Assembly: GCF_019720895.1 (NCBI RefSeq)
Contig: NZ_JAHKSH010000004.1
Span: forward strand, 124,001-188,000
Origin: Microbacterium salitolerans
GTDB taxonomy: Bacteria > Actinomycetota > Actinomycetes > Actinomycetales > Microbacteriaceae
Length of the DNA stretch: 64,000 nt
Direction of reading: 5' to 3'
Under the pieces are notes generated by a model that was not told where the DNA came from, did no database searches, and saw only the letters and a program-made list of their open reading frames with translations. Within the stretch, counting starts at the first letter, position 1; each line of letters starts with the position of its first letter. Made by a program: the position numbers and the translations under genes. Shown here in pieces: positions 6,136 to 13,256 of this stretch.

Positions 6136-7791
6136 TCAGGCGCCGAGCGTCACATCGCGGCCGGGAATCGCGTCGAGCAGGCGACGCGTGTACTCCTGGT
6201 CGGGATCCTGGAACACGCGGTCGACAGACCCCTGCTCGACGACACGTCCCTTCTCCATCACCGTGACCAGGTCGGCCGCGACGCGCACGACGGCGAGGTC
6301 GTGGGTGATGAACAGGTACGTCAGGTCGAGCTCCGACTGCAGATCGGCGAGCAGCTGCAGGATCTGGTCCTGCACGAGCACGTCGAGCGCCGACACCGCC
6401 TCGTCGAGGATGACGATCGACGGCTTGAGAGCGAGGGCGCGCGCGATCGCGATGCGCTGACGCTGGCCGCCCGAGAGCTCGTTCGGGTAGCGCCACGCCA
6501 GCTCTCGCGGGAGCGCGACCTGCTCGAGGAGCTCGAACACGCGCTCGCGACGCGACGAGCCGTCCCCCACGCCATGGATCTTGAGCGGCTCCGAGATGAG
6601 CGCGCCGATCGACCGCATGGGATCCAGAGAACCGTACGGATCCTGGAACACCGGCTGCATGCGGCCGCGGAGCGCGAACACGTCGCGACGCGACATCTGC
6701 GTGGTGTCGCGCCCCTCGATCTGCACGGATCCGCTCGTCGGCTTCTCGAGCTGCAGGAGCATCTTCGCGACGGTCGACTTGCCCGATCCCGACTCGCCCA
6801 CGAGAGCGAGCGTCTTGCCCTTCGGGATCTGGAACGACACGTTGTCGACGGCGCGGAACGGCACGCTGCGCATGCCGCCCGTGCGGATCTTGTAGTCCTT
6901 CACGAGATCCACGACCTCGACGACGGGCGGCGTCTCACGGATGGTGGACGTCGCGACCTGCGCGTCGCTCTCGACGATGCTCGCCTGGATCCGCTTCGAC
7001 GCCAGGCTCGGCGCCGCCGCGACGAGGCGCTGCGTGTACGGGTGCCGCGGATCCTCGAGGATGGCGCGACTCGGGCCCGACTCGACGATCTCGCCGCGGT
7101 TCATCACGATGATCCGGTCGGCGCGATCGGCCGCGAGGCCGAGGTCGTGCGTGATGAAGAGCACCGAGGTGCCCTTCTCACGCGTCAGCGATGCGAGGTG
7201 ATCGAGGATCACTCGCTGCACCGTGACGTCAAGCGCGCTCGTCGGCTCGTCGGCGATCAGCAGCTTCGGGTCGGCCGCGAGGCCGATGCTGATCAGCGCA
7301 CGCTGGCGCATGCCTCCCGAGAACTGGTGCGGGTACTGGTGCAGGCGACGCTCGGCGTCGTCGAGACCCGCCTGCTTCAGCACCTCGACCGTGCGGGCGT
7401 GCACGTCCTTGCGGCTCGAGGCGAGACCGTTCGCGCGCACCGTCTCCTTGACCTGGAAGCCGATCGACCACACGGGGTTGAGGTTCGACATCGGATCCTG
7501 CGGGACGTACCCGATCTCGCGACCGCGGATCTGCTCCATCCGCCCGCGCGAGACGGAGGTGAGCTCCGTGCCGTCGAGCGTCACGGATCCGCCGGTCACC
7601 TGACCGGTGCCGGGCAGGAGGTCGATGATCGCCGTGGCCGTCGTCGACTTGCCGGATCCCGACTCCCCGACGATCGCAACCGTCTCGCCTTCGAACACGT
7701 CGAGATCGATGCCGTGCACGACCTCCGTCTGCTTCTTTCCGCGCCCGAACGCGATGCGCAGGCCGCGGACGCTCAGAAGTGGCTCGCTCAT
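6136..7791 (-). CDS. Oligopeptide ABC transporter, fused double ATPase (DppD-DppF type)
   Basis: This 551-residue protein contains two complete ABC ATPase domains. The first (about residues 5-260) has Walker A GESGSGKST at 42-50, signature FSGGMRQR and Walker B LLIADEPTSALD. The second (about 290-545) has GESGSGKST, LSGGQRQR and VILDEAVSALD. It corresponds to DppD and DppF of the peptide/nickel importer family joined in one chain, a common actinobacterial form. It powers the two permeases encoded just upstream, and its start overlaps the preceding permease stop by four bases (ATGA). Confidence 0.95.
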   Translation of the reverse strand: MSEPLLSVRGLRIAFGRGKKQTEVVHGIDLDVFEGETVAIVGESGSGKSTTATAIIDLLPGTGQVTGGSVTLDGTELTSVSRGRMEQIRGREIGYVPQDPMSNLNPVWSIGFQVKETVRANGLASSRKDVHARTVEVLKQAGLDDAERRLHQYPHQFSGGMRQRALISIGLAADPKLLIADEPTSALDVTVQRVILDHLASLTREKGTSVLFITHDLGLAADRADRIIVMNRGEIVESGPSRAILEDPRHPYTQRLVAAAPSLASKRIQASIVESDAQVATSTIRETPPVVEVVDLVKDYKIRTGGMRSVPFRAVDNVSFQIPKGKTLALVGESGSGKSTVAKMLLQLEKPTSGSVQIEGRDTTQMSRRDVFALRGRMQPVFQDPYGSLDPMRSIGALISEPLKIHGVGDGSSRRERVFELLEQVALPRELAWRYPNELSGGQRQRIAIARALALKPSIVILDEAVSALDVLVQDQILQLLADLQSELDLTYLFITHDLAVVRVAADLVTVMEKGRVVEQGSVDRVFQDPDQEYTRRLLDAIPGRDVTLGA

Positions 7792-8726
7792 CGCTCAGCC
7801 CTCGCCTTCGGATCGAGGGCGTCTCGGAAGACTTCGCCCAGCGTGATGAATGCCAGCACCGTGCACGTGAGCGCGAGCGACGGCCAGAACAGCGCCATGG
7901 GCGCGGTGCGGATCGTCGTCTGCGCCTCGCCGATGTCGGCGCCCCACGAGATCGTGTCGTTGAGTCCGATACCGAGGAACGCGAGAGTCGACTCCGCCAC
8001 GATCGCGTGACCGAGGCTGATGGTCGCGACGACGATGACGGGTGCCATCGCGTTCGGCAGCACGTGGACGACGAGCGTCTTGAAGCGGTGCATCCCGAGG
8101 GCGATCGACGCCATGACGAAATCGAACTGCTTGACGCGCAGGATCTCCGCGCGCACGATGCGCGCCGTCGACGCCCAGGAGAACCCGCCGATCGCGAACG
8201 CGAGGACGAGCATCGTGCGCTGATCGGACGGCATGACCGTCATCACGACGATCGCGGCGATCACGTAGGGGATGGTGAAGAAGATATCGCCGACGCGCGA
8301 GAGCACGGAGTCGAGGAACCCACCGTAGAAGGCCGCAAGCGAGCCCATCACGAGTCCGATCGACGTGCCGATGAGCGTCGCGAGCAGGCCCACGACGATC
8401 GACGTGCGTGCGCCCCAGGCGATGCGCGTCCAGATGTCGCAGCCCTGACGGGTGAATCCGAGCGGATGCCCTCGCGACGGGCCGCCGTTGCTGTCGGCGA
8501 GGTTGCATGCTCCGCCCGAGGGCGAGATGTTCGTGAACAGCGACGGGAACGCGGCCATCACGACGACCAGCGCCGCGACGACGAGCGACACCCAGAACAG
8601 GGGGCGGCCGCGCATATCGCGCCAGGCGTCGAGCCAGAGGTTGCTGCGCTTCTCGTCGACACGCACCTGGTCGACGACGACATCCGCATCCTTCACGGGA
8701 GCGACGAAATGTGTGTGGTCAGACAT
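7788..8726 (-). CDS. Oligopeptide ABC transporter permease (OppC/DppC type)
   Basis: This 312-residue inner-membrane permease has a cytoplasmic N-terminal tail, a first transmembrane helix near residues 38-60, and five further helices. The family feature between them is a periplasmic loop ending in HPLGFTRQGCDIWTRIAWGA. The EAA-type cytoplasmic loop reads ALGMHRFKTLVVHVLPN. It forms the channel with the OppB-type permease. It overlaps both neighbours: eight bases with the upstream permease and four with the ATPase gene, indicating tight translational coupling. Confidence 0.94.
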   Translation of the reverse strand: MSDHTHFVAPVKDADVVVDQVRVDEKRSNLWLDAWRDMRGRPLFWVSLVVAALVVVMAAFPSLFTNISPSGGACNLADSNGGPSRGHPLGFTRQGCDIWTRIAWGARTSIVVGLLATLIGTSIGLVMGSLAAFYGGFLDSVLSRVGDIFFTIPYVIAAIVVMTVMPSDQRTMLVLAFAIGGFSWASTARIVRAEILRVKQFDFVMASIALGMHRFKTLVVHVLPNAMAPVIVVATISLGHAIVAESTLAFLGIGLNDTISWGADIGEAQTTIRTAPMALFWPSLALTCTVLAFITLGEVFRDALDPKARAER

Positions 8727-9645
8727 AGCGGATCCTCGGGTCGAGCAGACCGTAGAGCAGGTCGATCAGCAGGTTCAGCAGCACGTAGACGACCACGAAG
8801 ATCGTCACGAACGACACGATCGTCGGGGTCTCGTGGCGCAGGATCGCCTGATAGAGCGTGTTCCCCACACCGGGCACGTTGAAGATCGCCTCCGTGACGG
8901 TCGCGCCGACCATGAGGATGCCGAACTGCGTGCCGGTGTCGGTCACCATCGGGATCAGCGAGTTGCGGAGCACGTGAACCGGGATCACGCGACGGCGCGA
9001 CAGACCTTTTCCATAGGCGGTGCGCACCCAGTCCTGACCGAGCGTCTCGATCGTCGAGGCGCGCGTCAGCCGCATGCTCGAGGCGTAGATGCTGAGCGCG
9101 AGCGTGATCGCCGGAAGTATCAGTCCGCTCCAGCCGTTGTCCGACCCGACGGTCGGACTGAACCAGCCGAGCTGCACGCCGAAGAAGAACTGGAACGTGA
9201 AGCCGACGACGAACACGGGGACGGCCACGAACACCAGCGCGATGATGAGCATCGCGTGGTCGAACCAGGTGTTCTTGAAGATCGCCGACGCGACGCCGAT
9301 GATGATCGCGAGGCCGAAGGCCATCACGACCGCCTCGACCGCGAGTCGCAGCGTCACGGGGAACGTCCGGGCGAGCGTCTCGATGACGGGCTGCCCGTTG
9401 TAGCCGACGCCGAAGTCGAGCCGCAGGATCCCGCTGAGGTAGTTCAGATACTGCACGATGAACGGCTCGTCGAGCATGTATCGGTCTCGGATGATCTGCA
9501 GCTGCGCCTCGGGCGGCTGCTTGTCGCCGAACATCGCGGCGACCGGATCACCCGGCATGGCGAAGACCATGAAGTAGATCAGGAGGGTCGCCCCGAGGAA
9601 CACGGGGATCACCTGCAGGACCCGTCGGAGGATGTAATAGCCCAC
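8719..9645 (-). CDS. Oligopeptide ABC transporter permease (OppB/DppB type)
   Basis: This 308-residue permease has six transmembrane helices and the OppB-type N-terminus (YYILRRVLQVIPVFLGATLL). The conserved loop YGKGLSRRRVIPVHVLRNSL is the coupling helix that contacts the ATPase. Translation starts at GTG 9645, preceded by AAGGAGG. A strong stem-loop lies between this gene and the upstream receptor gene, which would let the receptor be made in excess over the membrane subunits. Confidence 0.94.
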   Translation of the reverse strand: MGYYILRRVLQVIPVFLGATLLIYFMVFAMPGDPVAAMFGDKQPPEAQLQIIRDRYMLDEPFIVQYLNYLSGILRLDFGVGYNGQPVIETLARTFPVTLRLAVEAVVMAFGLAIIIGVASAIFKNTWFDHAMLIIALVFVAVPVFVVGFTFQFFFGVQLGWFSPTVGSDNGWSGLILPAITLALSIYASSMRLTRASTIETLGQDWVRTAYGKGLSRRRVIPVHVLRNSLIPMVTDTGTQFGILMVGATVTEAIFNVPGVGNTLYQAILRHETPTIVSFVTIFVVVYVLLNLLIDLLYGLLDPRIRYV

Positions 9646-9682: not shown

Positions 9683-9720
9683 GATACGAGGCGGTGGCAG
9701 ATGCGCCACCGCCTCGTATC
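9683..9720 (-). terminator. Stem-loop between receptor and permease genes
   Basis: Two perfectly complementary 16-base arms (GATACGAGGCGGTGGC and its complement) surround a 6-base loop. It sits 23 bases after the receptor stop and 37 bases before the permease start. A partial terminator or RNA 3'-end stabiliser is the likely role, by analogy with receptor-permease junctions of other ABC import operons. Confidence 0.7.
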
Positions 9721-9743: not shown

Positions 9744-11396
9744 TCACTCCCAGGGGCTGATCTCGTTGGCCTCTTCCCACAGTTCCATGGCCTTCTCGGG
9801 GTCGTACTCGAGGACCTCGCCGCCCTCGAGGTCGTCGCTCCAGCCGTCGATGACCGGCGACGTGAAGTCGCTCGCGGGCGTGCGCGTGCCCTGGAAGATC
9901 ACGTCGGTGATCGACTCGCGGTCGATCGCCATCGAGATCGCCTGGCGGCGCAGCTTGCCCTCCTCGCCGGAGAAGTGCTCCATCTCCTGCGGGATCGTGA
10001 ACGACTGGAAGATCGCCGCGGGCTGGTTCACCGAACGATCGCCGAGCTCCTCCTCGTACTTCTCGAACGCCGAGTCCGGCAGCTGGTCGAGCACGTCGAG
10101 GTTGTTCGACAGAAGGTCCGCGTAGGCGGCGTCCTGCGACGCGTAGAACTTCACGAGGATGCCCTCGTTGTCGGGAGTGCGAACGCCGTCGTAGTCGGGG
10201 TTGGCGACGAGGTCCATCTGCTCGTCATGCGTCCAGGCGCCCTCGCCGTTCGGCATGTACGGACCGTTGCCGATCGGGTTCTCGCCGAAGGCCTCCATGT
10301 CCTCGAACGCGACATCGGGAAGCGGGTAGTACGCCGAGTAGCCGAGGCGCTGCGCGAAGTCGGAGGCCGGCTTGTTGAGCGTGATCTCGAACGTGTAGTC
10401 GTCGACCTGGTTCAGGCCGGAGAGTCCGTCGCCCTGCGCACCGTAGATCTCCTCCTCGGGGACGTTCTCGAAGCCCTCGATGTCCTCGAAGAAGTACTGG
10501 GACAGCTGCGCGTTCTCCTGCTCGGCGCCGTAGTTCCACGCCTTGATGAAGTTGTCGGCCGTGACCTCTTCGCCGTTCGTGAACATGAGGCCCTCGCGGA
10601 TCTTCACCGTGAGCTGCGTCGGCGAATCGACCGTGATCTCCTCGGCAACGTCGTTCTGCACGGATCCGTCTGCCTGGTAGGAGACGAGGCCGGCGAACAT
10701 CGCGTCGAGGATCTTGCCGCCGCCGACCTCGTTCGTGCTCGTCGGGATGAGCGGATTCTGCGGCTCCGAGCCGTTGACCGTGATCTGGCCGCCCTCGGCC
10801 TTCGTGATCTCGTGGAAGATCGGCACGGAGTGCCAGTCGATCTGCACGTTCTCGACGTTCTCGCTCCAGCCGGCGACGACGTTCTGGTACCACAGGGGGA
10901 TCGCCGGCAGGTCCTGCAGGAGGACCTCCTGCGCCTGCGTGTAGAACTCGTTCGCCGCCGCGGGATCCTCGGTTCCGATGCCCTCCGCGATGAGGGAGTC
11001 GAAATCCTCGGAGGAGTAGTCACCGTCGTTCGACCCGGCGTTCGTCGCATACAGCGGGCCGAGGAAGTTGTAGAGCCCCGGATAGTCTGCCTGCCATCCG
11101 GACCGGAACGCACCGTCGATCGTGCGGTTGGTGATCTCATCGCGCATGCTGGCGAAGTCGGGGAACGAGTTCGCCACCGCGTTGATCCCGAGCGTGCCCT
11201 CGAGGTTGTTGGTCACGGCGTCGACCCAGGCCTGGTGGCCGCCGTCGGCGTTGAAGGCGATGCCGAACTCGGGGCCGCTGCCCGAGCCCGCGTCGTCGTC
11301 GCCGCTGCCGCTGTCGCTCGAGCCGCAGCCGGCGAGGGCGATCGCCCCGACGCCGAGAACGGCCGCGCCCGTGAGGGTGAGCTTGTTGCGCTTCAC
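9744..11396 (-). CDS. Peptide-binding lipoprotein of ABC importer, lobes in circularly permuted order
   Basis: This is a 550-residue extracellular receptor of the SBP_bac_5 (OppA/DppA) family. A lipoprotein signal ends in LAGC (Cys24), followed by a Ser/Gly/Asp linker to about residue 42. Residues 43-200 (from EFGIAFNADGGHQAWVD to FHEITKA) correspond to the part that normally ends such proteins. Residues 203-550 (GQITVNGSEPQNPLIP onward, including LTVKIREGLMFTNGEEVTADNF and RRQAISMAIDRE) correspond to the normal N-terminal and middle part, and the chain stops at EANEISPWE, where the residue-43 segment would normally continue. The frame is intact, so this looks like a functional permuted receptor. 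Start is GTG with AAGGAG. It is the first gene of its operon. Confidence 0.9.
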   Translation of the reverse strand: MKRNKLTLTGAAVLGVGAIALAGCGSSDSGSGDDDAGSGSGPEFGIAFNADGGHQAWVDAVTNNLEGTLGINAVANSFPDFASMRDEITNRTIDGAFRSGWQADYPGLYNFLGPLYATNAGSNDGDYSSEDFDSLIAEGIGTEDPAAANEFYTQAQEVLLQDLPAIPLWYQNVVAGWSENVENVQIDWHSVPIFHEITKAEGGQITVNGSEPQNPLIPTSTNEVGGGKILDAMFAGLVSYQADGSVQNDVAEEITVDSPTQLTVKIREGLMFTNGEEVTADNFIKAWNYGAEQENAQLSQYFFEDIEGFENVPEEEIYGAQGDGLSGLNQVDDYTFEITLNKPASDFAQRLGYSAYYPLPDVAFEDMEAFGENPIGNGPYMPNGEGAWTHDEQMDLVANPDYDGVRTPDNEGILVKFYASQDAAYADLLSNNLDVLDQLPDSAFEKYEEELGDRSVNQPAAIFQSFTIPQEMEHFSGEEGKLRRQAISMAIDRESITDVIFQGTRTPASDFTSPVIDGWSDDLEGGEVLEYDPEKAMELWEEANEISPWE

Positions 11397-12366: not shown

Positions 12367-12786
12367 CTACAGCCCCGCGGCACGAAGAGCCGGGAGGATC
12401 CGCGTCGTCATGAGCGGGGCGAACTCGTCGCCCAGCGGCTGCGCGTCGTCGGCCCACCGGATCTCCTCGATCTCGGCCGCGGGCGACGTGACGTCGACCG
12501 GCGGGTGCGTGAACACCGTGCCCCGCACCGCATAGCCGCCCTCATTCGCGGCGGGCGCCTCGAAGACGCCCAGCAGGCGCATCCGAGTCGGGTCCAGCTC
12601 GACGTCGAGTTCCTCGCGGATCTCCCGGATCGCCGCGTCGACGGCGCTCTCGCCGGGATCGGGCTTCCCGCCCGGCTGCATGAACCTGTGGGTCCCGCGC
12701 TTGCGCACCGTGAGCACGTGCCGCGTCGCGGGGTGGCGCAGAACGACCGCGCTCACGTGGATCTGCTTCGCCTCGTCGTCGATCAC
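12367..12786 (-). CDS. NUDIX hydrolase
   Basis: This 139-residue NUDIX protein hydrolyses a nucleoside diphosphate linked to some other group, X. The Nudix box is canonical, running from GKPDPGE through REIREELDV near residues 39-61. The N-terminal strand IHVSAVVLRHPATRHVL and the substrate hint QPGG are typical. The specific substrate is not deducible. It is translationally coupled to another NUDIX gene by an ATGA overlap, and the two make a short convergent unit against the CPBP gene. Confidence 0.9.
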   Translation of the reverse strand: MIDDEAKQIHVSAVVLRHPATRHVLTVRKRGTHRFMQPGGKPDPGESAVDAAIREIREELDVELDPTRMRLLGVFEAPAANEGGYAVRGTVFTHPPVDVTSPAAEIEEIRWADDAQPLGDEFAPLMTTRILPALRAAGL

Positions 12787-13256
12787 CGCTCGAACCTCGC
12801 CGTCCCGTCGTGCGCGAGCGCCTCGCGGATCCGCTCGCGCATGTCATCGTTCAGCCCCGCGTCGTCGAGCGCGCCGACCGGGCACCACCACGCCCGCGTG
12901 TTCTCGCCGTCGACGGGATGCGGATCGCCGCCGTGTGCCGCGCACCGCACGACGATGTCGAGGTACTGGGCACGGTCGCCGTTCACATGCGTCATGGGCG
13001 GCAGCGCGCGCACCCAGACGAGGGCCTCGGCGACCGCGTCGATGCCGGCCTCCTCGGCGACCTCGCGCACCGCGGCGACGGCCGGATCCTCCCCCGGATC
13101 CACGATCCCCGTGACCGGGGTCACCTTGCCGTTGTCTGCCCGTTCGACGAGGAGCACCTCGTCGCCCTTCACGACGACGGCCGTGACGCCGATGAGCCAG
13201 AGCAGCTCGGTCCCGACCTTCTCGCGCAGACGCAGGATGAAATCGGGAGTCGCCAT
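12783..13256 (-). CDS. NUDIX hydrolase
   Basis: This 157-residue NUDIX protein has a canonical box, GIVDPGEDPAVAAV followed by REVAEEAGI, near residues 50-72. It begins MATPDFILRLREKVG and has the strand VTAVVVKGDEVLLVERAD. It resembles actinobacterial MutT-like hydrolases that prefer small nucleotides, but this is not resolved. The downstream NUDIX gene overlaps its stop by four bases, so both are likely made together, perhaps with complementary substrates. Confidence 0.9.
   Translation of the reverse strand: MATPDFILRLREKVGTELLWLIGVTAVVVKGDEVLLVERADNGKVTPVTGIVDPGEDPAVAAVREVAEEAGIDAVAEALVWVRALPPMTHVNGDRAQYLDIVVRCAAHGGDPHPVDGENTRAWWCPVGALDDAGLNDDMRERIREALAHDGTARFER

Follow-up and report, generated by a model that had tools for sequence, protein, structure and literature searches.

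How did a peptide-receptor gene come to be read with its last quarter first, and does such a gene still encode a working receptor? The question arises at a locus in the window (the whole stretch of DNA analysed, 64,000 nucleotides from Microbacterium salitolerans), where a reading made from the letters alone, hereafter the sequence-only reading, had placed the last quarter of a binding protein (residues 43-200) before the rest (residues 203-550, up to SPWE). We find that the gene very probably encodes a circularly permuted DppA-type peptide-binding lipoprotein that originated in place, and that DppA-like genes of other Actinomycetota underwent similar events several times over, two or more of these events at the same cut.

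The open reading frame (9744-11396, minus strand) begins with a GTG start and encodes 550 amino acids with zero internal stops. By homology, its predicted product is a DppA-type lipoprotein in circularly permuted order (Table 1). Searched with phmmer against PDB sequences, residues 205-549 fall on 4-350 of 6e3d (371 bits) and residues 43-200 on 353-510 (149 bits), and against 7jls residues 175-549 and 43-202 fall on 2-377 and 380-539, respectively. Compared with the normal-order sister L016, residues 196-550 correspond to 34-384 (75%) and residues 43-201 to 386-544 (71%), while the signal region 1-46 aligns to 1-46 of the same sister with 52% identity. Hence, through both segments, the whole mature chain is homologous to one DppA chain, and the segments are complementary without large loss or overlap, the cut lying at 350|353 of 6e3d (cut A) and the old ends being joined. 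These alignments confirm the swap proposed in the sequence-only reading, whose junctions agree with the PDB and L016 boundaries to a few residues; both segments, for which it had recommended separate searches, fall on one DppA chain with swapped target coordinates, and its clean frame with retained signal and lipobox was borne out by the lack of an internal stop and the motif LAGC at Cys24.

Table 1. Features of the permuted dppA gene and its operon (positions in the window; residues of the window protein)
Feature	Positions	Strand	Basis
Fused double ATPase, dppDF-like	6136..7791	-	Pfam ABC_tran twice, oligo_HPY
dppC-like permease	7788..8726	-	Pfam BPD_transp_1, OppC_N
dppB-like permease	8719..9645	-	Pfam BPD_transp_1; conserved position
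GC-rich palindrome (gatacgaggcggtggc...gccaccgcctcgtatc) between dppA and dppB	9683..9720	.	Sequence
DppA first three quarters (ordinary N-terminal part), residues 203-550, now C-terminal, end ISPWE	9747..10790	-	Homology
New joining stretch from old C-terminus to old N-terminus, residues 200-207 (AEGGQITV)	10776..10799	-	Clade alignment
Peptide-site motif W101-Q-A-D104	11085..11096	-	Alignment to M. tuberculosis DppA W442/D445
DppA last quarter (ordinary C-terminal part), residues 43-202, now N-terminal	10791..11270	-	Homology
Cys24 and Gly/Ser/Asp-rich tether, residues 24-42	11271..11327	-	Lipobox-type motif LAGC; predicted lipidation
Lipoprotein signal peptide, residues 1-23	11328..11396	-	Resembles signal of normal-order sisters

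Profile searches give the same picture. The Pfam family SBP_bac_5 (PF00496) matches with 187.1 bits against a curated cut-off of 32.4, in two stretches, the best of which takes residues 246-544 to profile positions 2-277. Among the 16 PF00496 matches of the window genome, the other 15 start at profile positions 1-10 and end at 326-367, and the window gene alone stops at 277. With the NCBIfam OppA and DppA models, the normal-order sister L071 is covered in one stretch over most of the model and the window protein in two, neither of them reaching the cut-off. A homology search of the window genome yielded no second strong DppA match.

The permuted order is encoded in the DNA and inherited across a clade. 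In the genus Microbacterium, 175 of the 296 genomes examined match at E 1e-50; at least seven of these matches, counting the window's own, extend over residues 1-550 or 2-550, with 65-80% identity in the other six, and the remaining genus rows among the matches listed are split. At the family level, 198 of 398 genomes examined match at 1e-90; among the matches listed, which reach down to about 4e-126, those of G000, G043 and both members of genus g73 are permuted over the full length, and G313 is cut at another point. A junction-pattern scan of named genomes returned nine stretches, eight with a permuted gene (Microbacterium suaedae, M. halotolerans, M. halophytorum, M. nanhaiense, 'Frigoribacterium' sp. 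JB110, a Microbacterium MAG, Arenivirga flava and Microbacteriaceae PS02343), and in the ninth (L051) a motif search detected none. Together with the window genome and G218, the order is carried by ten genomes of two genera, namely Microbacterium on the one side and Arenivirga and PS02343 on the other, which answers the search for orthologues suggested by the sequence-only reading. The M. halophytorum gene, incomplete in the stretch examined, reads C-part then N-part and was left out of the trees; in each of the nine complete clade proteins the signal has a lipobox-type Cys and the chain ends in I[SN]PWE or ISAWE. The idea of a natural circular permutation that retains its export signal is supported by the order of homology, by these ten genomes and by the signal aligned to that of a sister. 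Its being unusual in the family holds insofar as the swapped order is not the ordinary one, as the genus counts attest, but it is not isolated, since it recurs elsewhere in Actinomycetota.

What was rearranged was apparently the resident gene itself. With blastn, the flanks of the window locus are collinear with those of the normal-order loci L070, L071 and L073, and only the two gene parts are exchanged. At the cut site the normal sisters read ISPWDGEF, ISPWSGTF, ISPYEGTF or MNPWSGSF, whereas the window protein ends with ISPWE and restarts with GPEF; hence little or nothing was lost or duplicated at the cut. The best explanation of the origin is that the resident dppA was permuted in place, in the ancestor of the window clade. 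The operon had been described as intact, and indeed dppB, dppC and dppDF (by Pfam) lie beside the window gene, which also holds for 20 of 22 permuted loci inspected; of the exceptions, L062 is on a contig that ends before dppDF and L161, from another lineage, is without any operon gene. Furthermore, typA and a CAAX-protease-like gene recur beside both permuted and normal operons of the family.

Outside this clade, permutation of DppA-like genes, as judged from the order of their homologous parts, is a recurrent feature of Actinomycetota. A junction-spanning profile (A1) was searched at three levels in overlapping samples whose counts are lower bounds: spanning matches were obtained in at least 11 of 396 genomes at the order level (221 with any match), at least 3 of 396 at the phylum level (44 with any match) and at least 3 of 394 at the class level (53 with any match). 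Segment order was then read with N-part and C-part profiles. Genus g154 carries a permuted gene in five of six genomes and genus g193 in four of 41; family f32 has a match in 6 of 35 genomes examined. In total, at least 36 DppA-like genes from 32 genomes are permuted, and they represent no fewer than four distinct cut points. Cut A, that of the window, is found in the ten clade genomes, g154 (5), g193 (4), g104 of family f3 (6 genomes) and family f20 (G916, and three genes in G815). A fourth G815 gene (L225; contig 25, 12444-13919), a divergent SBP_bac_5 protein, is cut slightly upstream of the window's (PF00496 263-365 then 2-257), so that four of the seven matched PF00496 genes of G815 are permuted. 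Cut B, within the last quarter, belongs to G313, whose single congener keeps the normal order. Cut C, in G1142, precedes VRRRQAVSMAIN (PF00496 213-366 then 6-207), and cut D was seen in G1771 (61-364 then 7-61), in G1391 and in a second G1142 gene (61-365 then 2-51). G1767 encodes a divergent protein with A-like order. Of the 34 loci listed, 33 have a loose lipobox pattern ahead of their permuted domain and L157 has none (the row for L160 shows the earlier-cut paralogue of L160). Among plasmids, 1749 records match, and those listed (20) align in two pieces with 24-55% identity; the viral contigs searched contained no relative. By eye, the lipobox of the permuted DppA proteins in g104 (L158, L162, L163) is preceded by a twin-arginine-like signal (SRRSFGLG or SRRGFGLG), a hint that they may fold before export.

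Does this recurrence reflect several events, or did cut A have a single origin, from which horizontal transfer distributed the permuted gene so that it only seems to recur? Trees were built by FastTree and quick IQ-TREE searches, with the cut D genes and G1767 not among the rows. In FastTree with 81 rows, the nine complete members form an exact clade inside the Microbacterium sequences (support 0.997 for the concatenated parts and 0.824 for the N-part). The C-part tree does not unite them, their common ancestor holding 18 rows, which counts against the permuted-receptor reading, as does L161 without its operon. Segment order changes at least six times on 60 rows and seven times on 63 rows. Uniting the sampled cut-A genes costs 246 log-likelihood units on 15 rows (p 1.3e-5) and 318 units on 22 rows and is rejected, and the 22-row test likewise rejects window plus g154, window plus g193 and g154 plus g193 as single clades. 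For the smaller set, p was 0.0115 for window plus L155 (g154) and 0.0247 for window plus f20/f3; with more rows, the values were 2e-16 for window plus g154 and 0.0012 for window plus f20 plus f3. Grouping of f20/f3 with the cut B gene L059 is rejected (p 5e-4), with p 0.030 for L166, and cut B itself groups with its normal-order congener at full support.

A single origin of cut A was rejected by the constraint tests on 15 and 22 rows, and we consider it unlikely, even though several lineages have similar junctions (TK-A-D/E-G), the window clade spans two genera, and a clade of L155 (the single row from g154) and f20/f3 withstands the test (p 0.504). The tests are weakened, moreover, by the fact that their groups were named with a first tree already in view. 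However, normal C-termini can already read ITKAE or similar, and like junctions are therefore to be expected, while the permuted genes of g193, confined to four of 41 genomes, fall among normal-order genes of their own family. Since the cut-A genes sampled do not form one clade, cut A arose at least three times, and cuts B, C and D raise the number to six or more events.

A different objection concerns the protein rather than its history: once exported, the chain might be cleaved in the region of residues 200-207 and its two halves come together again, in which case the permutation would merely reorder fragments. Few parts of the mature chain are less conserved than the joining stretch, as such cleavage would allow, yet in the aligned clade members only the sequence of this stretch varies, with 7-8 residues separating K199 from N208 throughout, and we hold a two-chain protein to be very improbable. 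Slightly less credit still is due to the notion of a decaying or non-functional gene, for which the unusual order itself and the permuted L157 of another lineage, without an in-frame lipobox, might be adduced. In all nine complete clade members the frame is open; the operon is kept in the permuted loci as described above, and the six clade pairs computed, out of 36 possible, have dN/dS values of 0.13-0.44 over both parts, consistent with the earlier claim that selection had kept a permuted receptor. Cys24, W101 and D104 are invariant in the nine aligned permuted sequences. By alignment to 6e3d and a counted offset of 31, W101 and D104 equal W442 and D445 of M. tuberculosis DppA, which PMC6751184 describes as highly conserved peptide-pocket residues. 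A pseudogene was rejected on account of dN/dS and these conserved ligand residues. Finally, there is practically no chance that the order is an assembly or annotation artefact: although the window genome is a 21-contig draft and one clade member is a MAG whose contig measures 6.4 kb, the order is common to ten genomes from two genera, in four of which (G043, G142, G218, G429) the contig exceeds 1 Mb, and other lineages with the same cut include single-contig genomes (G826, G734, G868, G1640); assembly error was therefore rejected.

How would a circularly permuted receptor operate? With the offset of 31 from 6e3d, cut A maps to about 381|384 of M. tuberculosis DppA, a position within the C-terminal half as delimited in PMC6751184 (267-541), and the lipid tether would therefore no longer enter at the N-terminal end. 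Cuts B and C are also in the C-terminal half and cut D in the N-terminal half, as hand-counted in alignments. Most likely, the product of the window gene works as a peptide receptor, with a tether that leads into the C-terminal half rather than the N-terminal end. From sequence and gene context, we infer that it folds, is exported and lipidated, binds peptide and delivers it. Following removal of the signal peptide and lipidation of Cys24, the tether would enter the fold at the strand after the ISPW helix; the ordinary N- and C-termini, presumably close together in the fold, would be joined by about eight residues, and the chain would end at ISPWE. Considering the kept ligand residues, the receptor would close on a peptide via W101 and D104 and, considering the operon, pass it to the DppB/DppC permease with the fused ATPase as power source. 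An AlphaFold model computed with the nine-sequence alignment of the clade (mean pLDDT 39.7, pTM 0.29) places residues 533-546 in a helix (block means 78 and 77) and, with a poor score (47), residues 44-48 in a strand; this would fit a cut in the helix-strand loop but says no more than that.

As to the genetic route, duplication or fusion followed by trimming would be the likeliest, and the clean complementarity of the cuts might, as a guess, reflect trimming under structural selection. Duplication and fission-fusion are the standard models of permutation (PMC3320104). Among the matches read, fused duplicate intermediates (C-N-C or N-C-N-C) were not seen; the long open frames of L036 and L115-L117 contain one normal copy each and no fused duplicate, and around L047, the one locus inspected, no remnant of a second copy was found. 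Genus g79 has two tandem normal-order dppA genes about 1.7 kb apart (L113 1822-5020; L114 1717-4915), which are the kind of substrate that duplication-based permutation requires. A more far-reaching proposal is that Actinomycetota DppA-like lipoproteins were repeatedly and adaptively re-anchored in six or more independent events, each permutation behind a kept signal peptide moving the tether to a different place on the fold and so changing the presentation to the permease, with the ligand site intact. This we put forward tentatively, as somewhat doubtful; if true, the three or more events at cut A and those at cuts B, C and D would mark a naturally permutable receptor family.

Both segments of the window protein are homologous to M. 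tuberculosis DppA (PDB 6e3d, 7jls, 8wd9) and Gram-negative OppA/DppA (PF00496), with which it shares a lipoprotein-type receptor beside permease and ATPase genes and the peptide-site Trp and Asp. In contrast to these, its segments are swapped, and its tether enters after the equivalent of W381 (6e3d 350 plus 31) and not at the N-terminal end as in M. tuberculosis DppA. Natural circular permutations are known mostly as old differences between protein families. Among periplasmic binding proteins, domain dislocation is an ancient, fold-level change separating topological classes, and circularly permuted sensor proteins are laboratory designs. Both show that two-lobe binding proteins tolerate changes of connectivity, as our case would too, but here close sister species differ in segment order. 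Like the natural permutants named in PMC3320104 (swaposin/saposin, favin/concanavalin A and transhydrogenases), the window protein has two segments of one parent swapped and the old termini joined. Unlike them, it is a large, predictedly exported lipoprotein receptor with the signal kept before the permuted domain, and its family combines several independent events and cut points with replacement of a resident operon gene. Searches of the literature on circular permutation together with solute-, substrate- or oligopeptide-binding proteins, DppA and periplasmic binding proteins yielded no natural permutation of this kind in the titles and abstract beginnings among the matches listed, which is weak evidence; these matches mainly concern biosensor engineering or are unrelated.

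Within one genus and at the same locus, close relatives thus differ in segment order, and the rearrangement recurs elsewhere at the same or other cuts. Since relatives were rearranged alike more than once and some were cut elsewhere, this looks like a repeated natural experiment in protein rewiring. It offers matched natural pairs for testing the effects of segment order on folding, tethering and delivery in ABC importers, and such permuted and normal pairs also bear on the genetic route by which proteins become permuted. The finding further matters for annotation, because order-dependent profile searches split permuted genes, and the cut positions may serve as ready-made permutation sites for binding-protein sensors.

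Some minor observations concern the surroundings of the operon and its hosts. In seven permuted and six normal-order genes inspected, dppA is followed by a hairpin of the same kind as the palindrome between dppA and dppB of the window, which suggests an intra-operon attenuator raising receptor over permease. Two adjacent, slightly overlapping NUDIX genes (by Pfam; window 12367-13256) lie by the operon, and both are near it in several relatives. Lastly, the species names of L049, L050, L052 and L053 (halotolerans, halophytorum, suaedae and nanhaiense), taken as names alone, point to saline or halophyte habitats.
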